Assembly: GCA_031282225.1 (NCBI GenBank)
Contig: JAITEC010000041.1
Location: forward strand, 1 to 11,238
Direction: 5' to 3'
Length of the DNA stretch: 11,238 nt
DNA from: Oscillospiraceae bacterium
GTDB lineage: Bacteria; Bacillota; Clostridia; Oscillospirales; Oscillospiraceae
Shown: positions 1,031-11,238 of the stretch, one piece after another
How positions within the stretch are numbered: the first letter of the stretch is position 1
Layout: each line of letters begins with the position of its first letter
Notes under the pieces: model-generated
What the model saw: the letters and a program-made list of their open reading frames with translations, nothing else
The model's database searches: none
Told to the model about the DNA's origin: nothing
Position numbers and translations under genes: made by a program

Positions 1031-1624
1031 ATGAGCACAGCCGTTATATTGGCGGGCGGCAATAGCCGCAGGATGGGGCGCGACAAGATGGCGCTCGATT
1101 TTGGCGGTAGCTCGCTGCTCCGCTCCGCCGTAGCGAGGTTTTCGCGTTTTTTTGACACGGTCCTAGTCAGCGTGGCGAGTCCCGGGGCGTATGGCGGCGA
1201 GGGATTTACTACCGTGCCGGATATCATTCCCGGGCGCGGCCCACTCTCCGGCCTGCACGCCGCGCTCACGTATACGCGGGACGGCGGCGTTTTCCTCTCC
1301 GCGGGCGACCTCCCTTTCGCGAGCCCGGCGGCAGCCGTCAAGTTGACCGAGCTGTGCGGCAGCCACGAGATATGCGTCGTGGACGGCACATTGGGCAAGC
1401 GCGAGCCGCTGTTCGGCTTTTATAAAAAAACGCTGCTCAACAAGACAAGCCGAGCCCTGCTGGACGGGCGGCACAGCATGTCCGAATTCTTGGACTCGTC
1501 GGATACGCTATACGCGCCGCCCGCGCTTCTCGGCGAACTGTGGGACGAGAAAATGCTCACAAACATCAATTCCCCAGACGATTATATAAAACTGACCAAA
1601 TCGCCCTTCACAGCCTCGCCTTGA
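1031..1624 (+). CDS. mobA: Molybdenum cofactor guanylyltransferase MobA
   Basis: MobA-like nucleotidyltransferase of 197 residues, which joins GMP from GTP to molybdopterin to make the guanine-dinucleotide form of the molybdenum cofactor in the cytoplasm. The N-terminus has the nucleotide-binding signature LAGGNSRRMGRDK (residues 7-19), followed by GRGPLSGL at 68-75 and the metal-binding AGDLPF with Asp93. The NINSPDDY motif near the C-terminus matches the typical MobA ending. Length is normal for the family. The ATG at 1031 follows an AAAGG at a 6-base gap. The last 17 bases overlap the end of nspC on the opposite strand. A specificity for CTP (MocA-like) cannot be excluded, but LAGGxSxRMGxDK favours MobA. 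A second, HD-fused member of this superfamily lies at 7989-9089. Confidence 0.9.
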   Translation: MSTAVILAGGNSRRMGRDKMALDFGGSSLLRSAVARFSRFFDTVLVSVASPGAYGGEGFTTVPDIIPGRGPLSGLHAALTYTRDGGVFLSAGDLPFASPAAAVKLTELCGSHEICVVDGTLGKREPLFGFYKKTLLNKTSRALLDGRHSMSEFLDSSDTLYAPPALLGELWDEKMLTNINSPDDYIKLTKSPFTASP

Positions 1625-2744
1625 AATCCCCGTATCCGAATTCTCGCACCGTGCGCACGGCACCGTCGGTGCCCAGTACTGCGATGGACGGCAGGTTCAT
1701 GCCGTTAAACGTGGTATTTTTAACCGTGGTGTATATCGCCATGTTCCCAAACGCGAGCCTGTCGCCGGGGCGCAACGGCGCGTCGAACGAGTAGTCGCCA
1801 ATCACATCGCCGGACAGGCATGTGTTGCCCGCCAGGCGGTACGTATGCGGCTTTTCGCCCGCGCTGCCCGCTCCGGCGACATCCGGGCGATACGGCATCT
1901 CGAGCACATCGGGCATGTGGCAGGCGGCGGAAGCGTCGGTTATCGCTATGTCCATGCCGTTCGTGACGACATCGAGCACGGTGGCAACCAGCGCGCCCGC
2001 GTCGAGCGCCACGGCCTCCCCGGGCTCGAGATACACCGTAAGCCCGTATTTCGCGCGGAACTCCCTAATGCGGCGCACGAGAGAGGCAATATCGTAACCC
2101 GGCCGCGTTATGTGGTGTCCGCCGCCAAAATTTATCCACTCCAATTGATGAAAACACCTGCCGAACAACCGCTCCACTTCGTCGAGTGTGGCTATGAGAG
2201 CGTCGCTGTCCTGCTCGCACAGCGTGTGGAAGTGCAGCCCGCTTATCCCGGGCGGCAGCTTGTCCGGGAAGGCGGCGGCTACGGTGCCCAAGCGGCTGTA
2301 CGGCGCGCACGGGTCGTATATGGTGTGCTCTTGAGTTGAAAACTCCGGGTTCACGCGGATGCCAGCCCTCGCGCCGGAGGCCAGTGCCCTCTCTCCGTAG
2401 AGCTCCCACTGCCTAAACGAGTTGAACACCACGTGGCCGGCGTACCGCAGCAGCTCGTCGAACTCCTCCGGCCTGTAAGCGGGCGAGAACACGTGCGTCT
2501 CCCCGCCCATCTCCTCATATCCCAGGCGCGCCTCGTGCAGCCCGCTCGCCGCCGTCCCGTCGAGGTAACGGCCGATCAGCGGGTATAGCGCGTAGTTGGC
2601 AAAAGCCTTCTGCGCCAGCAACACGCGGCACCCGGCCCCGTCGCCGACGGCGCGCAGTATCTCCAGGTTTTGTACCAGCTTCGCCTCGTCTATCACGTAG
2701 CACGGCGTGGCGAGGCGTCTCGCCGCAGCGATGTAGTCTGTCAT
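1608..2744 (-). CDS. nspC: Carboxynorspermidine/carboxyspermidine decarboxylase
   Basis: PLP-dependent decarboxylase of 378 residues, the normal length for NspC. It removes CO2 from carboxyspermidine or carboxynorspermidine to give spermidine or norspermidine. It has the fold-III (alanine racemase-like) barrel: the PLP lysine is probably Lys46 in LLAQKAF, followed by HFHTLCE (171-177), the phosphate-binding INFGGGHH (204-211), EPGEAV (240-245), and a C-terminal catalytic cysteine, Cys309, before SGDVIGDY. Those motifs separate NspC from the related diaminopimelate and ornithine decarboxylases. It begins 9 bases after the dehydrogenase gene with no clear Shine-Dalgarno sequence, which points to translational coupling. 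It is the last gene of the polyamine operon and ends within the convergent mobA. Confidence 0.93.
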   Translation of the reverse strand: MTDYIAAARRLATPCYVIDEAKLVQNLEILRAVGDGAGCRVLLAQKAFANYALYPLIGRYLDGTAASGLHEARLGYEEMGGETHVFSPAYRPEEFDELLRYAGHVVFNSFRQWELYGERALASGARAGIRVNPEFSTQEHTIYDPCAPYSRLGTVAAAFPDKLPPGISGLHFHTLCEQDSDALIATLDEVERLFGRCFHQLEWINFGGGHHITRPGYDIASLVRRIREFRAKYGLTVYLEPGEAVALDAGALVATVLDVVTNGMDIAITDASAACHMPDVLEMPYRPDVAGAGSAGEKPHTYRLAGNTCLSGDVIGDYSFDAPLRPGDRLAFGNMAIYTTVKNTTFNGMNLPSIAVLGTDGAVRTVREFGYGDFKARL

Positions 2745-2753
2745 GGCGCCGGC

Positions 2754-3959
2754 TCAGTCCACTAACACCGGGGAGAAATCCTCCGTCCACGGCAATCCCC
2801 ACTTGCCGAGCCCGTCCATGAACGGGTCCGGGTCGAACTCCTCCACGTTATACACGCCCGGGCGGCGCCAGGCGCCGGTCATTACAAGTCCCGCGCCTAT
2901 CATTGCCGGCACGCCCGTGGTGTACGATATGGCCTGCGAGCCCACCTCCCTGTAGCACTCCTGGTGGTCGCAGACATTGTAGAGGTAGTAATTTACCGGC
3001 CTGCCACCCTTTTCGCCCGTGAATACGCAGCCTATGTTCGTCTTGCCTCGCGTGCGCTCCCCGAGCGAGGCGGGATCCGGCAGCACCGCTTTTAGGAATT
3101 GCAGCGGCACGATCTCCATGCCGTTGTACTCTATCGGCTTTATCGACGTCATACCCACGTTCTCCAGGCATCGCAGATGCGTGAGATAGCTCTCTCCGAA
3201 CGTCATGAAGAAGCGTATGCGCCGGACTCCCTTTATATTGACGGCCAGGCTCTCTATCTCCTCGTGGTGCAGCAGGTACATATCTCGCGGGCCCACTTGC
3301 GGGAAGTCGTACCCGCGCTTTATCTCCATAGGCGCCGTGTGCACCCATGCGCCGTCCTCCCAATAGCTGCCCGGCGCCGTCACCTCGCGGATATTTATCT
3401 CGGGGTTGAAGTTCGTGGCAAACGGGAGCCCGTGGTCGCCGCCGTTGCAGTCGAGGATGTCTATGGTGCGTATCACGTCGAAATAGTGCTTCTGCGCGTA
3501 CGCGGAGAACACTCCCGTGACGCCGGGGTCGAAACCGCAGCCCAACAGCGCCGTGAGACCCGCCTCCTCGAAACGGCTGCGGTACGCCCACTGCCAGCTG
3601 TACTCGAATTTCGCCGTGTCGGGCGGCTCATAGTTGGCGGTGTCTACATAATGCACCCCCGCCTCCAAGCACGCGTCCATAATGGACAGGTCCTGGTACG
3701 GCAGCGCGAGATTGAGCGCGACATCGGGTCTATACTCCCGCATGAGCGCCGCGAGCGCCGCCGCGTCGGAAGCGTCCACGCGCTGCGTATACACGGCTGT
3801 CGGCGTGCCGGTCGCGTCGAGCCTCGCTTTTAAGGCATCGCATTTTCCCTTTGTGCGGCTGGCTACCATGACCTCGCCGAATACCTCGCTGTTTTGGCAG
3901 CACTTGTGCGCCGCAACCGAGGCGACTCCCCCGCAGCCGATTATAAGCACCCTCCCCAT
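2754..3959 (-). CDS. Carboxy(nor)spermidine dehydrogenase (saccharopine dehydrogenase family)
   Basis: NAD(P)H-dependent enzyme of 401 residues. It condenses aspartate beta-semialdehyde with a diamine (putrescine gives carboxyspermidine; 1,3-diaminopropane gives carboxynorspermidine) and reduces the imine. The N-terminus is a Rossmann fold with GCGGVA at residues 8-13 and a second-strand VASRTKGK region that suggests NADPH. The C-terminal half has the saccharopine dehydrogenase-like region ending in the CDHQECYREVG and TTGVPAMIGAGL segments typical of this subgroup. The following gene, nspC, is its known pathway partner, which favours this role over lysine-pathway saccharopine dehydrogenase. 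The start at 3959 has a perfect AGGAGG 7 bases upstream. Diamine preference cannot be read, but the neighbouring speA and speB make putrescine the likely substrate. Confidence 0.92.
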   Translation of the reverse strand: MGRVLIIGCGGVASVAAHKCCQNSEVFGEVMVASRTKGKCDALKARLDATGTPTAVYTQRVDASDAAALAALMREYRPDVALNLALPYQDLSIMDACLEAGVHYVDTANYEPPDTAKFEYSWQWAYRSRFEEAGLTALLGCGFDPGVTGVFSAYAQKHYFDVIRTIDILDCNGGDHGLPFATNFNPEINIREVTAPGSYWEDGAWVHTAPMEIKRGYDFPQVGPRDMYLLHHEEIESLAVNIKGVRRIRFFMTFGESYLTHLRCLENVGMTSIKPIEYNGMEIVPLQFLKAVLPDPASLGERTRGKTNIGCVFTGEKGGRPVNYYLYNVCDHQECYREVGSQAISYTTGVPAMIGAGLVMTGAWRRPGVYNVEEFDPDPFMDGLGKWGLPWTEDFSPVLVD

Positions 3960-3966
3960 GCGCGTA

Positions 3967-3972
3967 CCTCCT
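3967..3972 (-). promoter_or_regulatory. Ribosome binding site of the dehydrogenase gene
   Basis: AGGAGG on the minus strand, 7 bases before the ATG at 3959, inside the 30-base gap after speB. It is the strongest site in the operon and fixes the start. The gap holds no terminator-like hairpin, so read-through from speB is expected. Confidence 0.75.
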
Positions 3973-3989
3973 CAAATTAATAAACGACT

Positions 3990-4841
3990 TTATTTGTGAA
4001 TTATCAGCAGCAGTTCCCGCAGGGTCACGCAGGCGGCGGCGGCGGATATGCCGCTCGTGTCGTAGTGGGGGGACAGCTCCGTTATGTCCGCGCCTACTAT
4101 GTTGGCGCCCGCCAGCTCCAAAACAGCGGCGAGCAGCTCGCGGAATGTCGCGCCGCCGGGCTCAGGCGTGCCCGTGCCGGGCAGACACGACGGGTCAAGC
4201 ACGTCGAGGTCCACGGTCACGTATACGGGCAGTCCGCCGAATGAGCGCACGGTCTCTCCCACGCCACGCAGGTCATACATCCGAGTGACGGCGTGCTCCG
4301 CCGCGAATTCGAGCTCGCGGCGCTCCCCGCTGCGTATGCCAAACTGGTAAATCCTGCCGTCTCCCACAAGCTCGTGCGCGCGCCGCATTACCGTGGCGTG
4401 CGACAGTCTCTCTCCCATATACTGCTCCCGCATGTCGCAGTGCGCGTCGAAATGCACAACGCGCAGATCTGGGTGCGCCCGGGATGCGGCGCGCAGCGCG
4501 CCCAGCGTCACCAAGTGCTCGCCGCCGAGCATGACAGGGCGCTTGCCGTCTCGCAGGTACTCCCCGGCGCGCTCGTCTATGAGTTCCAGCGCGGCGGCGG
4601 CATTTCCGAAAGGCAGCTCCAGGTCGCCCCCGTCAAAGACGCGTATATCGCCAAGATCCCTGTTTTGGTACGGGGAATATGTCTCTATGCCATACGACTC
4701 CGCGCGTATGGCGCCGGGCCCGAAGCGCGCCCCGGGCCTATATGAAGCCGTGCCGTCGAACGGCGCGCCGAATACTGCGGCATCCGCCCTCTGGTACGTG
4801 CTATCGCAGCCTATGAACTGCTCATGTCCCGCGTTCGGCAC
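3990..4841 (-). CDS. speB: Agmatinase / agmatine ureohydrolase family
   Basis: Ureohydrolase of 283 residues that hydrolyses agmatine to putrescine and urea with a two-manganese centre. All the ligand motifs of the arginase/agmatinase family are present: GGEH (His109), FDAHCD (Asp132, His134, Asp136) and VDLDVLDP (Asp211, Asp213), plus Glu255 in DITELSP. The N-terminal GCDSTY and GAPFDG motifs are typical of bacterial SpeB. The start is a GTG at 4841 that overlaps the end of speE by 20 bases; no ATG lies in frame nearby, and a GAGGAG sits about 10 bases upstream. Next to speA it most likely completes the arginine to putrescine route. Acting instead on aminopropylagmatine, as in Thermus, is possible because speE is adjacent. 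Confidence 0.93.
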   Translation of the reverse strand: MPNAGHEQFIGCDSTYQRADAAVFGAPFDGTASYRPGARFGPGAIRAESYGIETYSPYQNRDLGDIRVFDGGDLELPFGNAAAALELIDERAGEYLRDGKRPVMLGGEHLVTLGALRAASRAHPDLRVVHFDAHCDMREQYMGERLSHATVMRRAHELVGDGRIYQFGIRSGERRELEFAAEHAVTRMYDLRGVGETVRSFGGLPVYVTVDLDVLDPSCLPGTGTPEPGGATFRELLAAVLELAGANIVGADITELSPHYDTSGISAAAACVTLRELLLIIHK

Positions 4842-5682
4842 TTCTCAGCATCTCCTCTACGTATGTGGGCAGGCAGAAAGCTCCCGCGTGCAGCTTCGTG
4901 TTGTAGTAGCGCGTGCGCAGTCCCAAGGCGTTCCATGCATCCGCGTCGAGCCCGCGCACGGGGTGCATGCCTTTAGACGCGAACCCGAACAGCCAATAGC
5001 CCGAGGGGTATGTGGGTATGTGCGCGTGGTACACGCGGCATAGTTCAAACGAGCTGTATATGCGGCTGTGCGCGCGCTTCATCGCGTCGGCGTCCGCCGC
5101 GTAGAACGGGCTCTCGTGCTGGTTGACCATTATGCCGCCGTCGCGCAGCGCCTTGTGGCAGCTGCCGTAGAACTCACGCGTGAACAGGACCTCTCCGGGG
5201 CCGAACGGGTCGGTAGAATCGACAATTATCAAATCGTACTCGCTCTCTCGCCCGCGCACGAACCGCAGCCCGTCTTGGTAGTGCAGCGCGACGCGGCTGT
5301 CGTCGAACCCGCACGACACGCTCGGCAGGTACTCGCGGCACACCTCCACCACGGCCGGGTCTATCTCCGCCACGTCCACGCGCCTTATCCCGCCGTACCG
5401 CACTAGCTCGCGCACCGCTCCCCCGTCGCCCGCGCCAATGACGAGCACGTCGCGGATATCCGGGCGGACGGCCATCGGCACGTGCGTTATCATCTCGTGG
5501 TAGATGAACTCGTCGCGCTCGGTGAGCATGAGATACCCGTCGAGCGTCAGCACGCGCCCGAACTCGTCCGACTCGAACACGTCTATGCGCTGGTAGTCGC
5601 TGCGCCCGCTGTACAGCTGCCTGTCAAACCTTATCCAGAATTTTACGTTCTCGGAGTGGTCCTCCGAGTACCACAGTTCCAT
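4822..5682 (-). CDS. speE: Spermidine synthase (polyamine aminopropyltransferase)
   Basis: Aminopropyltransferase of 286 residues, which moves the aminopropyl group of decarboxylated AdoMet onto putrescine (possibly agmatine) to make spermidine and methylthioadenosine. It has a small N-terminal beta domain, then a Rossmann-like domain with GAGDGG at residues 83-88, AEIDP (Glu106, Asp108), YQDG (Asp137) and the gate motif DSTDPFGPG (Asp155, Asp158). The YHEM motif at 62-65 is also present. These are the standard substrate-binding and catalytic positions, and the length is normal. It starts 19 bases after speA, with a weak AGGCGG site about 11 bases before the ATG, and its last 20 bases overlap speB. 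The upstream speD would supply its aminopropyl donor. Confidence 0.94.
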   Translation of the reverse strand: MELWYSEDHSENVKFWIRFDRQLYSGRSDYQRIDVFESDEFGRVLTLDGYLMLTERDEFIYHEMITHVPMAVRPDIRDVLVIGAGDGGAVRELVRYGGIRRVDVAEIDPAVVEVCREYLPSVSCGFDDSRVALHYQDGLRFVRGRESEYDLIIVDSTDPFGPGEVLFTREFYGSCHKALRDGGIMVNQHESPFYAADADAMKRAHSRIYSSFELCRVYHAHIPTYPSGYWLFGFASKGMHPVRGLDADAWNALGLRTRYYNTKLHAGAFCLPTYVEEMLRSAERGT

Positions 5683-5701
5683 ATAAAAATCAATCCGCCT
5701 C

Positions 5702-7150
5702 TCAAGCGAGAATATTGATGTTCTCCGTCGCCATGTCCTCTGTACCCGTCAGCGAGCAGCCCTTTTCCTTCGCGTACAGTATATAGTCGGCTATGTCCGC
5801 CGTTATGCGCTCGCCGGGCGCCAGTATCGGTATGCCGGGCGGGTAACACATGACAAACTCCGTGCATATCCCACCCACTGCGCCCCTCACGGTCGCCGCC
5901 CTGTGCGGAGCGTAAAACGCGTCCTGCGGCGTCATCTCCACGTGCGGGGCGATATACTCGTACCGCAACAGGCCGCTCCCGTCGCGCTTGTATCGCCTGC
6001 GTATCTCGTACATAGCGCTTATGAGGCGCTCTATGCTCTTTATCTTGTCGCCCGCAGTTATATACGCCAGGATGTTCGCTATGTCGCCAAACTCTATCTG
6101 TATGTCGTACTCGTCGCGCAGTATATCGTAAACTTCGATGCCTGCAAGGCCGATGCCGAGCGTATTCACGGACAGCTTGGTCCTGTCGAAATCGAAGACC
6201 GAGTCCCCGTTTACCAGTTCCGAAGAGAACGCGTAGTAGTCGCCTATGGCGTTTATCTCGCCGCGCGCGTAATCGACGAGCCGGACCGCTTTCGCAAAAA
6301 GCTCCGCGCCGCGCAGCGCCAGGTCGCGCCGGCATATGTCCAGGCTCGACAGCAGGAGGTACGACGCGCTCGTGGTCTGGGTGAGGTTGATCATCTGCCT
6401 TGCCCTGTCCGCGTTCACGCGCTCGCCGCATACGAGAAACGAGCTTTGCGTGAGGGAGTTGCCGGACTTGTGCGCCCCGATGGACGACATGTCCGCCCCC
6501 AGCGCCATTGCGCCGCTCGGCATCCCCTCGCCGAAGTAGAACTGCGTCCCGTGCGCCTCGTCGGCAAGTACAAGCATGCCGTATTCGTGCGCGCGCCGCG
6601 CGATGCCCGCCACGTCGGAACACACCCCGTAGTACGTGGGATTATTTACCAGCACGGCCTTGGCGCCAGGGTTTTTCTCAATGGCATGTGCCACATCCCG
6701 CGCGCCCATGCCGAGCGCTATGCCCAGCCGGGGGTCGGTCTGCGGGTTCACGTACACGGGGACGGCGCCCGTGAGTATCAGCGCGTTTATTACGCTGCGG
6801 TGCACGTTGCGCGGCAATATTATCTTGTCGCCGCGACCGCACGCGTAGAGCACCATCGCCTGTACGGACGACGTGGTCCCGCCCACCATGAAAAACGCGC
6901 GCGCCGCCCCGAAAGCGTCCGCCGCCAGCTCCTCCGCCTCACGGATGACGCCCACGGGGTGGCAGAGGTTATCGAGCATTTTCATGGAGTTCACGTCGAC
7001 GGAAAGGCACCGCTCGCCGAGGAAGTCCTGCAGCGGCCCGCTCCCTCGCCCGCGCTTGTGTCCTGGCACGTCAAACGGCACTATGCGCATGTCGCGCAGC
7101 TTGGAGAGCGCCTCGTATATAGGTGCTCTCCCCTGGTTCGCCGCGTCCAT
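5702..7150 (-). CDS. speA: Arginine decarboxylase, Bacillus SpeA type (Orn/Lys/Arg decarboxylase family)
   Basis: PLP-dependent fold-I decarboxylase of 482 residues, predicted to convert arginine to agmatine. It carries FDVPGHKRG (26-34), a GGTTSS stretch (90-95) that would bind the PLP phosphate, ADEAHG (Asp197, His200) and the Schiff-base lysine Lys228 in SIGAHKSGNS. The length fits the short Bacillus-type class without the N-terminal wing domain of E. coli CadA or SpeC. Lysine or ornithine specificity cannot be excluded on sequence, but agmatinase in the same operon makes arginine the best guess. The frame stays open upstream to 7648, but that part overlaps speD and has no family similarity. 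The ATG at 7150 is chosen because it overlaps the speD stop in a TGATG and the family N-terminus begins there. Confidence 0.92.
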   Translation of the reverse strand: MDAANQGRAPIYEALSKLRDMRIVPFDVPGHKRGRGSGPLQDFLGERCLSVDVNSMKMLDNLCHPVGVIREAEELAADAFGAARAFFMVGGTTSSVQAMVLYACGRGDKIILPRNVHRSVINALILTGAVPVYVNPQTDPRLGIALGMGARDVAHAIEKNPGAKAVLVNNPTYYGVCSDVAGIARRAHEYGMLVLADEAHGTQFYFGEGMPSGAMALGADMSSIGAHKSGNSLTQSSFLVCGERVNADRARQMINLTQTTSASYLLLSSLDICRRDLALRGAELFAKAVRLVDYARGEINAIGDYYAFSSELVNGDSVFDFDRTKLSVNTLGIGLAGIEVYDILRDEYDIQIEFGDIANILAYITAGDKIKSIERLISAMYEIRRRYKRDGSGLLRYEYIAPHVEMTPQDAFYAPHRAATVRGAVGGICTEFVMCYPPGIPILAPGERITADIADYILYAKEKGCSLTGTEDMATENINILA

Positions 7151-7914
7151 CAGTACAGGTTTATCCCGCTGAATATCTCGATCATTTCCTGGCGCAGATT
7201 GTTCGTGATATTCAGCCTTGTCTTGGGCGCTATCTCGTACACGTCGGTATTGAACAGATAGTTTTGGAGCACGACTTCCTTGATGAGCATCTTCGTGTGG
7301 AACAGGTTCGACTGGTACACGTTTATGTCCACGGCATCGTACCGCGCCAAAATATCGTCGTCTATATAGTCCTGTATGGACCTTATATTGAGGTCGGAAA
7401 ACAGTTTTTTCCCCGATACGTCGCGCGTAAACCCGCGCACCCTGTAGTCCATCGTGATTATGTCGGAGTCGAAGCTGCCAATGAGAAATCCAAGGGTAGA
7501 AAGCGGCGTTATATCGCCGCAAGTGGCGACATCTATGTCCACCCTGAACGTGGCTATTGAGTTGCCGGGATGAAACTCCGGATATGTGTGCACGGTGACA
7601 TGGCTCTTGTCGAGATGAGCCAGCACCGCGTCGCCTTGCAGGCGGCACGCCGTCGACTCGTCGGCTATGAGGAGCGCGGCGGAGGCGCCCTGCGGCTCAT
7701 AGTCCTGCTTGGAGATGTTTATCACGTTCGCGCCTATCATCTCCGTCACCCTTACGAGTATGCTCGTCAGCCGCTCGGAATTGTACTGTTCGTCCACATA
7801 CGCGATGTAGTCTTGCTGCTCGCGCTCCGTCTTCGCGTAGCAAATGTCGTAGATATTGAAACACAGCGACTTTGTCAGGTTATTGAATCCGTATAGCTTC
7901 ATCTCGTTTGTCAT
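7150..7914 (-). CDS. speD: S-adenosylmethionine decarboxylase proenzyme, E. coli class
   Basis: Pyruvoyl-dependent AdoMet decarboxylase of 254 residues, which makes the aminopropyl donor for SpeE. The proenzyme should cut itself between Lys103 and Ser104 in LDKSHVTVHTYPE, turning Ser104 into the pyruvoyl group. His110 and the likely proton donor Cys132 in VATCGDI follow. The remembered E. coli SpeD shares long stretches with it, such as YGFNNLTKSL, DYEPQGAS, DYRVRGFTRD and NVYQ-NLFHTKML, so this is the longer E. coli-type class rather than the short Bacillus/Thermotoga class. GGGGGA lies 6 bases before the ATG. First gene of the polyamine operon, with its own promoter candidate. Some SpeD homologues elsewhere have become arginine or ornithine decarboxylases; the high similarity to E. 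coli and the adjacent speE argue against that here. Confidence 0.94.
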   Translation of the reverse strand: MTNEMKLYGFNNLTKSLCFNIYDICYAKTEREQQDYIAYVDEQYNSERLTSILVRVTEMIGANVINISKQDYEPQGASAALLIADESTACRLQGDAVLAHLDKSHVTVHTYPEFHPGNSIATFRVDIDVATCGDITPLSTLGFLIGSFDSDIITMDYRVRGFTRDVSGKKLFSDLNIRSIQDYIDDDILARYDAVDINVYQSNLFHTKMLIKEVVLQNYLFNTDVYEIAPKTRLNITNNLRQEMIEIFSGINLY

Positions 7915-7963: not shown

Positions 7964-7992
7964 AATATACGCTCCCGCAAGGGGAAAGTCAA
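7964..7992 (-). promoter_or_regulatory. Candidate sigma-A promoter of the speD polyamine operon
   Basis: On the minus strand TTGACT (7992-7987, 5 of 6 consensus bases) is followed by a 17-base spacer and TATATT (7969-7964, 5 of 6). The -35 box overlaps the TGA stop of the mocA-HD gene. Transcription would begin near 7957, leaving a leader of roughly 43 bases that contains the GGGGGA ribosome binding site of speD. It would let the polyamine genes be expressed apart from rplL and mocA-HD. No riboswitch or clear operator was recognised in the short leader. Confidence 0.55.
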
Positions 7993-9089
7993 CTGTCCGA
8001 TTCTGCGACAACGCCGTACCGCTCTTCCAGCGCGCGCGATATGTCCATCGCGCGCGTGATGCGCGCGCGGGCAGCGGCGTACGCGGCGGGGTCGGCGGCA
8101 AAGCGGCGGGCCGTGTCTCGCAGCGTGGCCTCCAGCGGGACCGTGCCGCCCGCGCGGCACAGCTTGTCCGCTAGATACAGCAGCATAGAGGCGTCTATAT
8201 CGACGCGCTCCGGCGGCATCTCCATGTGGCGGCCCACGGCCATGGCGGCCTCGGGGTACCCAAGCGACAGGAGCAGCAGCATCCCGGCACGCGCGTGATC
8301 CGGCTCGCGCCTGCATATGTCGTGCAGCAGGCACGACGACCTGAGCAGCCCGACGTCTATATCCGCGCCCGCGCCGTTGCAGCGGCGCGCCAAGGCATCC
8401 GCTACGCGCGCCACACTCTTGCAGTGCGCTACGATGTTCCCCGGGGTGCCATAACGTTCTAGCAGCGCGAGCGCCTCGCCCTCGTCGGGGTACGTCGGCA
8501 GCCCGAGTATCCGCAGCAGCGCGGCGTATCCCTCCGGCGTGTCCATGTCGGCGGCGGCGCCCGGGTCGTCCACGCGCACGTCCAACCGCCGAAAGCGCGA
8601 TAGATAGGCGCGCATACCGCCCTCGCCGTCAAATTCGCCGATGGAGCTCAATACTCCCGCCGGGATCAGCGGCGGGTGTCCCGGCGCGCCGTTGAATACG
8701 GGGTATACAACACGCCCCGGCGCCCGCCGGGATGCGGACAGCAGGCGCTTTAGTGTGTCTTGGCTAACCGCGCAGCAATCCACAGGCAGCAGAAAGAACG
8801 CTTCCGTATCCGCACAGAGAGCGCGCGCCCCGGCAATGACGGACGACAACATCCCATCGTCGTAGCGCGCGTTGTGTACGATATCCACGTTCAAGCCGCA
8901 ACGCCGGAGCTCCGCCCCGACGTCGCAGCTCCGGTAACCCGTTACGACCGTCACGCGCTCAACGCCCGCCTGTTTCGCCAGATGGACGGCGCGCGCTACG
9001 GCACTTTGCCCGCCGACGGGCAGCAATGGCTTGAACGCCCCCATCCTAGACGAATACCCCGCCGCGAGGATCACCGTTGCAGGCTTCAC
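7989..9089 (-). CDS. MocA-like nucleotidyltransferase fused to an HD domain
   Basis: A 366-residue two-domain protein. Residues 1-190 form an NTP-transferase domain: LAAGYSSRMGAFKPLL (8-23), a metal-binding Asp104 in LLPVDCC, GHPPLIP (137-143) and DMDTPEGY (181-188). This pattern fits the MocA/YgfJ branch, which makes the cytosine-dinucleotide molybdenum cofactor or serves related molybdenum hydroxylases. Residues from about 205 on form an HD domain with His222, the His256-Asp257 pair and Asp308 in LADKL, the metal ligands of HD phosphohydrolases. Comparable fusions are known next to molybdenum hydroxylase genes, but their exact reaction is unclear to me. The start is probably the GTG at 9089, 22 bases after the rplL stop and without a good Shine-Dalgarno, so translation may be coupled to rplL. 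Its 3' end carries the -35 box of the speD promoter. Confidence 0.85.
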   Translation of the reverse strand: MKPATVILAAGYSSRMGAFKPLLPVGGQSAVARAVHLAKQAGVERVTVVTGYRSCDVGAELRRCGLNVDIVHNARYDDGMLSSVIAGARALCADTEAFFLLPVDCCAVSQDTLKRLLSASRRAPGRVVYPVFNGAPGHPPLIPAGVLSSIGEFDGEGGMRAYLSRFRRLDVRVDDPGAAADMDTPEGYAALLRILGLPTYPDEGEALALLERYGTPGNIVAHCKSVARVADALARRCNGAGADIDVGLLRSSCLLHDICRREPDHARAGMLLLLSLGYPEAAMAVGRHMEMPPERVDIDASMLLYLADKLCRAGGTVPLEATLRDTARRFAADPAAYAAARARITRAMDISRALEERYGVVAESDS

Positions 9090-9111: not shown

Positions 9112-9495
9112 CTACTTTACTTCAACCGTGGCGCCGACCGCTTCGAGCTTCGCCTTTACCCCGTCGGCCTCGTCCTTGTTTACCGCCTCTTTGATCTTCG
9201 CCGGGACGCCCTCTACGAGAGCCTTGGCCTCCGCCAGCCCGAGTCCGGTTATGGCGCGCACTTCCTTGATGACCTTGATCTTCTCGGCGCCGAAACTCGT
9301 CATTACGACATCGAACTCCGTCTGCTCCTCCGCTGCGGCCTCCGCGCCCGCAGCTGCTCCGCCTGCGGCCGGCGCCGCCATCGCCGCCGCCGACACGCCG
9401 AATTCCTCTTCCAGGGCATGTACGAGTTCCGACAGTTCGATCACCGTAAGCGCCTTGACCTCTTCGATGAGCGCGGTTATTTTTTCACTTGCCAT
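9112..9495 (-). CDS. rplL: 50S ribosomal protein bL12 (L7/L12)
   Basis: The 127-residue stalk protein of the large ribosomal subunit, which binds uL10 as dimers and recruits translation GTPases. It shows the dimerising N-terminal helices (about residues 1-33), an alanine-rich hinge (about 37-58) and the conserved C-terminal domain with [23 protein letters not shown] and a VEVK ending. Length and sequence are normal, so it should work. GGAGG lies 11 bases before the ATG. Codon use differs from its neighbours: ATC is favoured over ATA for isoleucine, as expected for a highly expressed gene. The place is unusual: it normally follows rplJ directly and precedes rpoB, but here a foreign-looking amidase gene separates it from rplJ and a mocA-HD gene follows. 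It ends with TAG. Confidence 0.97.
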
Positions 9496-9504
9496 TATTA
9501 TAAA

Positions 9505-9531
9505 TACCTCCGTTTAATTATACACATTGAG
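9505..9531. repeat. Imperfect direct repeat, left copy, at the rplL leader
   Basis: Matches 10850-10876 at about 20 of 27 positions without gaps. The first 14 bases match at 12 (minus-strand consensus ATTAARCRGAGGTA), and the last five, TTGAG on the plus strand, match exactly. It covers the rplL ribosome binding site and the end of the amidase frame. Part of the likeness is due to both copies being ribosome binding sites, but the match extends well beyond them. Confidence 0.45.
9507..9511 (-). promoter_or_regulatory. Ribosome binding site of rplL
   Basis: GGAGG on the minus strand, 11 bases before the rplL ATG. It is part of a 14-base stretch that recurs with two changes at the ribosome binding site of the amidase gene (10850-10863). 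Confidence 0.75.
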
Positions 9532-10845
9532 TGCGGAATGTCCATAATAAGAAGTTGCGTTAGGATTCCAAAATTGCAGAACATCGCCTTTTCTTAATGT
9601 TGTGCTGATATTTGTGTATACTGAATTATCATTGTACCCTGTAGCCCTTGGTCCGTTACCGGTATTTGCCGTTGCAAAATCCCACAAATCCGCTACTCCT
9701 ACAAATGCAGGTTTTTCATTTCCTGTAGAGTCGTAATTACGACCCCACCAACCAGTTACCATTCTGTAGTCAGCTGCAACTCGAGCTTTTAGTGCTACTG
9801 CTGTTGGATTAGAATATGTGTTATCGGTATAAAGGTTCTAAATAGTATATCCTGAAGTTCCCCCATATCCCGCCCATATGCACTGCGAAACAAAATTGGT
9901 ACAATCGGGAGATGAACGCTTGAAAACATAGTTATCGTATTTGTCTCCAAGCCAATATCCCCACGAACGCGCTGATGCCGCATCATAACTTACGCTAATG
10001 GTCTGCACAAGAAAAGTGTTATCGACGTTTTCACCTATATCTCTTGCAGACTCTTTGCTTCGAGTTACCTCTATTTCATTTTCCATTTCATTTATAGAAA
10101 CTGCGCCAGTCGCGCTTTCGTTGTCAGAGGCAACTATATCCGCGCTCTTTCCAGAAAACAGCTCATCGATAATTTTAAATAATTCATCATCGGTAAATAT
10201 TGACTTCCCGTGGACAGCTTTTGCGTTTTCTAGTTCTGCGAGGCGACAGTCAATGTCTGAAGACTCGGCTCTGATTTCAGTTACCTGCCTGTTTTTGATT
10301 TTCAGAGTAAATATTGTACCCTGCCCACTCCGCTCTCCGGCGAATTGATATGAGGCTCCAGCATACACTTCAACCTCCATGTGAGATTCAAGGTCTGTAA
10401 CATTCAAGACGGTAAGCTGGCTGACTTCAACATCAGAAATGCCGCCATAGTGAATTTTGTAACTGGAATACTGAAACACTTGCTCTTTCATTATCAAATA
10501 AGAAATTGGGTCTAGCTTTTCCAAGTCAAAGTCGGAAAGACTTCCCGTCTCAAGAACTGCGTAATAATTCTCAAAAAAGTCGCACAGTATGTCCGCAATT
10601 TCAGGATACCCACCATCATCAAACGAGTACACTAGCGATTTTTTGAGTGGAGCTTCCATTTGAGCCTCCACAGGATTTTGAAGCTTCCCGTCATCAGGAA
10701 GAGTAACCTCTGAATTGCTCAATTGCGCATTTTGCGAACTGGGCATAGTTTCAGCTTCCTGCTTGCTCTGCGCGCTAGACAATAATCCGCCGCAGACGAA
10801 AAGAATTGTGCAAGCAATGACGACGTGTATAAATGTTTTTTTCAT
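9514..10845 (-). pseudogene. Secreted amidase-domain protein (Amidase_6-like), broken by an in-frame TAG and 3' truncated
   Basis: A frame of 443 codons with one TAG at 9838-9840 (codon 336). The first 335 residues start with a signal peptide (Lys2-Lys3, hydrophobic residues 6-22), then a polar region rich in Ser, Glu and Asp, a mixed alpha/beta region (about 70-235), and the start of a C-terminal putative amidase domain with the likely catalytic Cys315 in SPDCTNFVSQC. After the TAG the same frame goes on with GWWGRNYDSTG, GDVLQFWN and a likely catalytic His436 in GHSALNV. It then stops at once, about 30 residues shorter than I expect for this domain. The domain is typical of exported cell-wall or peptide hydrolases in Firmicutes. 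Base composition is far lower in GC than the neighbours, which suggests acquisition. Start at 10845 with AGAGG upstream. The unbroken 335-residue product would lack the catalytic histidine. Confidence 0.75.
9517..9544 (-). promoter_or_regulatory. Candidate promoter for rplL inside the end of the amidase gene
   Basis: The minus strand has TGGACA (9544-9539, 5 of 6 consensus bases), a 16-base spacer and a perfect TATAAT (9522-9517). Transcription would start only a few bases before the GGAGG of rplL, giving a very short leader. Both boxes lie in the last ten codons of the interrupted amidase frame, so the TATAAT may partly reflect coding sequence (Tyr-Asn). If active, it would restore rplL expression independently of read-through from rplJ. 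Confidence 0.4.
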
Positions 10846-10849
10846 GAGC

Positions 10850-10876
10850 TACCTCTGCTTAATAATTAGCGTTGAG
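10850..10876. repeat. Imperfect direct repeat, right copy, at the amidase leader
   Basis: Partner of 9505-9531. It holds the AGAGG ribosome binding site of the amidase gene and the AT-rich sequence before it. Its position at the right edge of the low-GC island, with the other copy at the left edge, makes the pair candidate boundaries of the insertion. Confidence 0.45.
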
Positions 10877-10889
10877 TTTTGACACTCCC

Positions 10890-10913
10890 GCTATGCGTGC
10901 CGCCGGCAATAGC
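10890..10913 (-). other. Hairpin just after the rplJ stop codon
   Basis: Starting one base after the rplJ stop, the RNA could fold with an outer stem GCTAT/ATAGC and an inner stem TGCC/GGCA closed by a GGC loop, with three unpaired bases on the 3' side. No T run follows, so it is not a standard intrinsic terminator. It could be an attenuator, a processing site or mRNA-end protection between rplJ and the downstream genes. The rest of 10846-10914 shows no clear promoter. Confidence 0.35.
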
Positions 10914-10914
10914 C

Positions 10915-11238
10915 TTACTGCCCGGACTGCGTTTCGGCCGATGTTACGGCTTCAGCTGCCGTGTCTGTGACCGGAGCTTCCGGATCCGTGTCCGCGCCGT
11001 TTTGATCGCCGCCGCCTTTTTTCTCCGCTATCGCCTTGACGACGGCGGCAAACATCGCTATCGGCGCCAGCATCGTGCCGAGCACCTGCGCGCGCAAGAT
11101 GGGCAGCGGGGGAATGGCGGCCAAGGCGTTGACCTCGTCTACGGACAGCACCTTGCCGTCCATGAAGCCGCCCTTGATGAAGAAGTGGTTATCAAACTTC
11201 GTCGCGTACTCCTTGATAAGCCGCGCGGGCGCTATGGC
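10915..11238 (-). CDS. rplJ: 50S ribosomal protein uL10 (L10), 3' part, cut by the window edge
   Basis: The last 107 residues of L10, the base of the ribosomal stalk, which anchors bL12 dimers through its C-terminal helix. The reading frame stays open to the window edge, so the gene begins outside. Recognisable parts are an APARLIKEYA start, FFIKGGFMDGKVL, LPILRAQVLGTMLAPI and the helix ending AIAEKK that binds bL12. After AIAEKK come about 33 residues rich in Gly, Asp, Glu, Ala and Thr, longer than the usual short end of bacterial L10. It stops with TAA, 69 bases before the amidase gene that splits it from its usual partner rplL. The core domain looks intact and functional. Confidence 0.95.
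   Translation of the reverse strand, partial: AIAPARLIKEYATKFDNHFFIKGGFMDGKVLSVDEVNALAAIPPLPILRAQVLGTMLAPIAMFAAVVKAIAEKKGGGDQNGADTDPEAPVTDTAAEAVTSAETQSGQ

Follow-up and report, generated by a model that had tools for sequence, protein, structure and literature searches.

Gene order on the contig

The window, by which is meant the whole 11,238 nt stretch analysed here, is one complete contig (C143) of a MAG of 1.22 Mb in 224 contigs that is 63.6% complete and 1.3% contaminated. On the minus strand it carries the 3' part of rplJ, encoding uL10 (10915-11238, where the contig end cuts the gene), an interval of 1,419 nt, an intact rplL, encoding bL12 and ending with TAG (9112-9495), and, adjoining rplL, a MobA-like/HD gene of the NTP transferase/HD kind (7989-9089), for which the closest named matches among 8,000 candidates scored are Oscillospiraceae bacterium records. 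There are no tRNAs in the window, nor any RNA families at the gathering threshold. A run of polyamine-type genes is present on the same strand at 1608-7914, including by Pfam a PF00278 decarboxylase, an Orn/Lys/Arg decarboxylase (PF01276), and an AdoMet decarboxylase (PF02675), and by eye ORFs like spermidine synthase, agmatinase, and carboxynorspermidine dehydrogenase, such that two routes to polyamines seem to be encoded next to each other.

The identity of rplL is given by PF00542 (E 3.2e-29), PF16320, and TIGR00855 matches and by 89% protein identity to rplL of the sibling genome G001. A Pfam search with the rplJ fragment gave nothing; the fragment matches NF000955 with 53.6 bits over model positions 85-155, a score below the whole-protein cut-off of 85 as is expected for a fragment, and is 86% identical to residues 91-164 of the sibling L10. 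Both genes are on the same strand and the interval between them is exactly 9496-10914, as described in a first-pass annotation of this sequence, which had reported them to be separated by an insert in the same orientation.

The rplJ-rplL pair in related genomes

In G001, the order is rplJ (PF00466, NF000955), 31 nt, rplL, and the NTP transferase/HD gene. The end of rplJ and rplL from the window both match there; this is the same locus minus the interval. Sequences matching both genes were found in 56 of the 60 genomes searched, the window's own among them, and in all 55 of the others rplJ and rplL are close together on one strand; the remaining four (G002, G011, G013, and G022) matched neither gene and are uninformative for the split. 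The rplJ matches stop at query residue 156-165. Counting from there, rplL lies 53-551 nt away in the 55 other genomes (median 110), as against 1,518 nt in the window. The largest of these distances, in G030, is due to a long rplJ tail, the reading frame there reaching 32 nt before rplL. The closeness of rplJ and rplL that marks an rplJL operon is seen in these genomes and not in the window, where the genes are 1,419 nt apart.

The first-pass annotation had held that the two genes are normally adjacent, that this is a rare place for an insertion, and that the spacer should be compared between related genomes. The comparison bears this out, with 31 nt in G001 and no comparable split in any of the 55. 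Nor was a normal rplJ-rplL pair found elsewhere in the window's own genome, which at 64% completeness has one rplL and one partial rplJ. The empty site within the genus is that of a single congener, G001, the other congener, G002, being without a match to either gene.

The lengths of rplJ and of the spacer vary within this group. Long rplJ frames are present in some relatives, of 258 codons in G001 (L004, 641-841) and 339 codons in G030 (L009), and in G001 the gene has a repetitive acidic tail, unlike the shorter tail of rplJ in the window. In G008 (L020), about 280 nt upstream of rplL, there is a long rplJ-rplL spacer containing CTCACGTCC three times, without a continuation of rplJ, which would suggest that this spacer can gain extra sequence elsewhere in the family.

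An interrupted amidase coding sequence

Most of the interval is taken up by an Amidase_6 coding sequence (9521-10845, minus strand) with about 42% GC. From the ATG at 10845 the frame runs to 9514, which is 444 codons or 1,332 nt, with one in-frame TAG (9838-9840) and no frameshifts. The first ORF is of 335 codons, from 10845 down to 9838, and its TAG lies inside the Amidase_6 domain, more of which is carried by the frame beyond it. Both pieces match PF12671, with 26.7 and 29.9 bits against a cut-off of 23.2, and read across the TAG the match is of 55.2 bits. The TAG parts the Cys motif, DCTNFVSQ, from the conserved His motif (HS), which presumably form the catalytic dyad, so that Cys and His are not in one open frame as they are expected to be in a functional member of this family. 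PMC10318531 places Amidase_6 among the families that have a complete core and can dispense with the third triad residue, and the two Amidase_6 proteins of B. subtilis are classed as uncharacterised in PMC10653849. No solved relative was found by sequence at E values up to 1.

The 3' end of the gene is also missing. The PF12671 match goes no further than position 123-124 of the 163 in the profile, short of a complete domain, and the homologues P0002-P0005 have about 50 further C-terminal residues with a conserved VAQH...KMRLLRF ending that is absent at the rplL joint; the final stop of the frame (9514-9516) is within host-derived sequence. That rplL ends with TAG, both in the window and in G001, indicates that TAG is an ordinary stop in this organism. 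The first-pass annotation had described a gene coding for an exported amidase. The Amidase_6 domain is indeed present, and the N-terminus is, by eye, like a signal peptide, but the coding sequence is interrupted by a nonsense codon and truncated at its 3' end, and from the sequence it is best read as a pseudogene that looks dead.

Between the domains of the window amidase and P0002, 40 of 60 residues are identical before the TAG and 64 of 106 after it. The ratio of post-TAG to pre-TAG identity is inside the range of other homologue pairs. When the window and P0002 are each compared with the six partners they share, the window has the slightly lower ratio every time; this may be a sign of some decay or come just from the aberrant residues next to the joint. 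The domain identities, and the single stop without any frameshift in 1,332 nt, indicate that decay is not far advanced, and the insertion is probably recent.

Composition and relatives of the amidase

The amidase frame has a GC of 0.42 and a GC3 of 0.38, against 0.52-0.68 and 0.74-0.84 in the 11 other tabulated genes, which confirms the low GC noted in the first-pass annotation. Amidase_6 domains are present in 47 of 99 genomes of the family and order, the window's own included, a few of them in frames of 379-1153 codons, and there are none in the two congeners. Given how common the domain is among its kin, it is only this kind of Amidase_6 protein that looks foreign. The 335-residue piece found matches in 81 of 400 family genomes, its own among them, and in the 80 others the alignment is confined to residues 229-334, the region around the Cys motif; at the sensitivity of that search, no match covering the N-terminal two thirds was found in the 399 other genomes. 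Horizontal gain, as proposed at first pass, is thus supported by the composition, by the intact rplJ-rplL pair of G001, and by this lack of family matches to the N-terminal two thirds.

Among 5.8 billion proteins there were nine matches, one of them the window's own, and in clustering at 90% identity the amidase piece stands alone, as a single member from a single contig. The best other match is 37% identical over the whole query, with the next three 32-34% identical over 76% of it; in alignment A2, P0002-P0005 are 28-39% identical to the window amidase. In named genomes 35 loci match, many beyond the best covering only a short part. The top ones by E-value are from MAGs of Herbinix (31%), Lachnospiraceae (30%), and Clostridiales (23%) and from an uncultured bacterium (30%), and Lachnospiraceae make up most of the best matches. 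The nearest full-length relatives are Amidase_6 proteins, predicted to be exported, of Lachnospiraceae-type genomes. The nearest homologue is less than 40% identical, so that the donor group would be no more than a probable one. The Herbinix protein (L075) and P0002-P0005 are like the window amidase in their signal-peptide-like N-terminus (by eye), long N region, and DCTNFVSQ...HS catalytic domain; the window copy is unlike them in having a TAG within that domain and in being without the last 50 or so residues. In both Herbinix (L075) and the uncultured bacterium (L077), the amidase is followed by a gene whose product is predicted to be exported, and by eye no mobile element was seen at either locus.

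The joints and a direct repeat

The right joint is at 9520/9521, where similarity to the spacer DNA of G001 starts; positions 41-449 of the blastn query used here aligned at 83% to G001, and alignment A3 places the joint there as well. As this similarity continues from 9520 through rplL, the GGAGG Shine-Dalgarno sequence of rplL and its start region are native. The only other match to this query in the window's own genome is a 32 nt stretch inside the coding part of rplL. The left joint is in or near the spacer between the rplJ stop and the amidase start (10846-10914, minus strand), which is GC-rich near rplJ and AT-rich near the amidase.

An imperfect direct repeat of 28 nt surrounds the insert, with its left copy at 10850-10877 and its right copy, which includes part of the rplL Shine-Dalgarno sequence, at 9505-9532 (both minus strand), identical at 21 of 28 positions. 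Among 600 shuffled pairs the maximum was 20 identities, a figure that flatters the repeat since the alignment was chosen after inspection. With the Shine-Dalgarno sequence held in register, the 22 nt upstream of it match at 15 positions, as in 0.005% of 20,000 shuffles, again for an alignment made after inspection. Compared with the rplL leaders of 29 relatives the left spacer has at most 17 matches, and two amidase leaders (L075 and L077) have 17 matches to the right side. The possibility that the repeat is a duplicated rplL leader was considered and is weakened by the 25% difference between the copies, more than a recent duplication would show, and by the left copy's agreement with the rplL leader of G001, which at 15 of 28 positions is no better than chance. 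The divergence of the two copies also argues against a fresh target-site duplication.

Neither terminal inverted repeats nor an exact target-site duplication could be made out convincingly at the ends of the insert. There is no second copy of the insert in its own genome, as far as that 64% complete assembly extends, and searches with the insert found no match among phages and plasmids and no relative among viral contigs. Among ORFs of at least 60 aa, neither the amidase pieces nor the three others that overlap the interval match a recombinase in Pfam, and those three have no Pfam match of any kind.

Sequences upstream of rplL

The GGAGG Shine-Dalgarno sequence of rplL is retained. Across the right joint is a promoter-like sequence, TGGACA-16-TATAAT (9517-9544, minus strand), with its -35 in the insert and its -10 over the joint. 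It agrees with the consensus at 11 of 12 positions and is the best promoter-like sequence in the region, 21 nt before the rplL start codon. Seven promoter-like sites were found in the region, where 2.4 are expected. A score of 11 out of 12 was reached by 0.34% of 5,000 shuffles of a 105 nt stretch, and among 29 relatives in one, L005, where the site ends at the start codon. A transcript starting seven bases after the -10 would begin at 9510, inside the Shine-Dalgarno sequence, which lowers the odds that such a hybrid promoter feeds rplL. Terminator-like sites on the coding strand number two, against 2.4 by chance. Judged from these motifs, transcription of rplL may start upstream, in the new sequence, or in both places.

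The 1.4-kb insert sets the window apart from the rplJL operon of B. subtilis, which is not known to carry one. Otherwise the two are alike in having rplJ followed by rplL on one strand, and in B. subtilis the operon is described as being controlled by L10(L12)4 at an upstream leader (PMC4538822), a region that in the present genome would be outside the contig, which ends inside rplJ. If the hybrid promoter were active, bL12 would be made partly from its own transcript with a very short leader, outside L10(L12)4 autoregulation, and the stalk proteins would be uncoupled; this is considered unlikely.

Origin of the interval

The best explanation, to which we give a probability of roughly 0.7, is that a foreign, low-GC amidase fragment was captured in the rplJ-rplL spacer by illegitimate recombination and is now a young pseudogene. 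Some 1.3-1.4 kb of foreign DNA, carrying most of an exported Amidase_6 gene like those of Lachnospiraceae-type genomes, would have entered the short spacer of one Oscillospiraceae-type lineage. The preferred mode of joining would be illegitimate recombination assisted by short homology. With its right joint upstream of the rplL Shine-Dalgarno sequence, the event would have spared the translation signals of rplL and cost the amidase its last 50 or so residues. The TAG between the Cys and His motifs may have arisen in place or come along with the DNA, and transcription presumably runs through the pseudogene as a long stretch separating rplJ from rplL.

It is improbable that the interval is instead an artefact in which a stretch from a low-GC organism was stitched into the spacer during assembly. 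The fragmentation and incompleteness of the MAG, the contig end inside rplJ, the solitary one-contig cluster of the amidase piece, and the failure to find the split in a second genome among 55 others would fit such an error, but it requires two independent false joins, each into the same sibling locus. That both flanks match one sibling locus makes a chimeric assembly unlikely, there is no second match in the own genome, and by eye the longest exact run within the 28 nt repeat is six bases, which leaves no obvious repeat to mislead an assembler. Slightly less probable is that a small mobile cassette integrated site-specifically, with the repeats as its attL/attR-like ends. The imperfect repeat around the insert, which no shuffled pair equalled, and the poorer agreement of the left spacer with the rplL leaders of relatives would favour it; against this, the repeat alignment was picked after inspection and includes the Shine-Dalgarno similarity, the cargo is truncated at its 3' end, and there is neither a recombinase match in the ORFs searched, nor a second copy in the own genome, nor a phage, plasmid, or viral-contig match.

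That the TAG is read through, and that an exported amidase is made together with the stalk proteins, is the least probable of these alternatives and very unlikely. The single stop and absence of frameshifts, the family conservation much retained in the part after the TAG, and the Shine-Dalgarno-like AGAGGTA that precedes the amidase ATG in the spacer at 10846-10914 would be expected of a functional gene, but TAG terminates rplL in the window and in G001, and the C-terminal residues conserved in the homologues are absent regardless. Capture of a gene fragment, now a pseudogene, is preferred. A shift in stalk-protein stoichiometry, as expected in the first-pass annotation, would be no more than a possible consequence of the insert. 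If the lineage does live with a 1.4-kb dead insert, then the tight linkage of rplJ and rplL is less binding than assumed, or a compensating promoter has formed, and the locus would serve as a natural experiment on how the uL10:bL12 ratio is maintained. Otherwise, it is an ordinary case of gene-fragment capture, if in a striking place.

Comparison with known insertions

No published case of a split rplJ-rplL pair was found in the titles and opening parts of abstracts searched, which does not show that none exists. The conserved rpoBC/ribosomal operon cluster is described as taking gene insertions, such as nrdHEF between rplL and rsmC in the Lactobacillaceae (PMC8046335). Foreign DNA inside a ribosomal operon is therefore a known kind of event, of which this is a new instance in a rarely hit place. 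The window is like the cases given in that report in having genes inserted within a highly conserved ribosomal operon cluster; the inserts named there are whole genes located after rplL or between operons, whereas here it is the rplJ-rplL pair itself that is split, and by a broken fragment.
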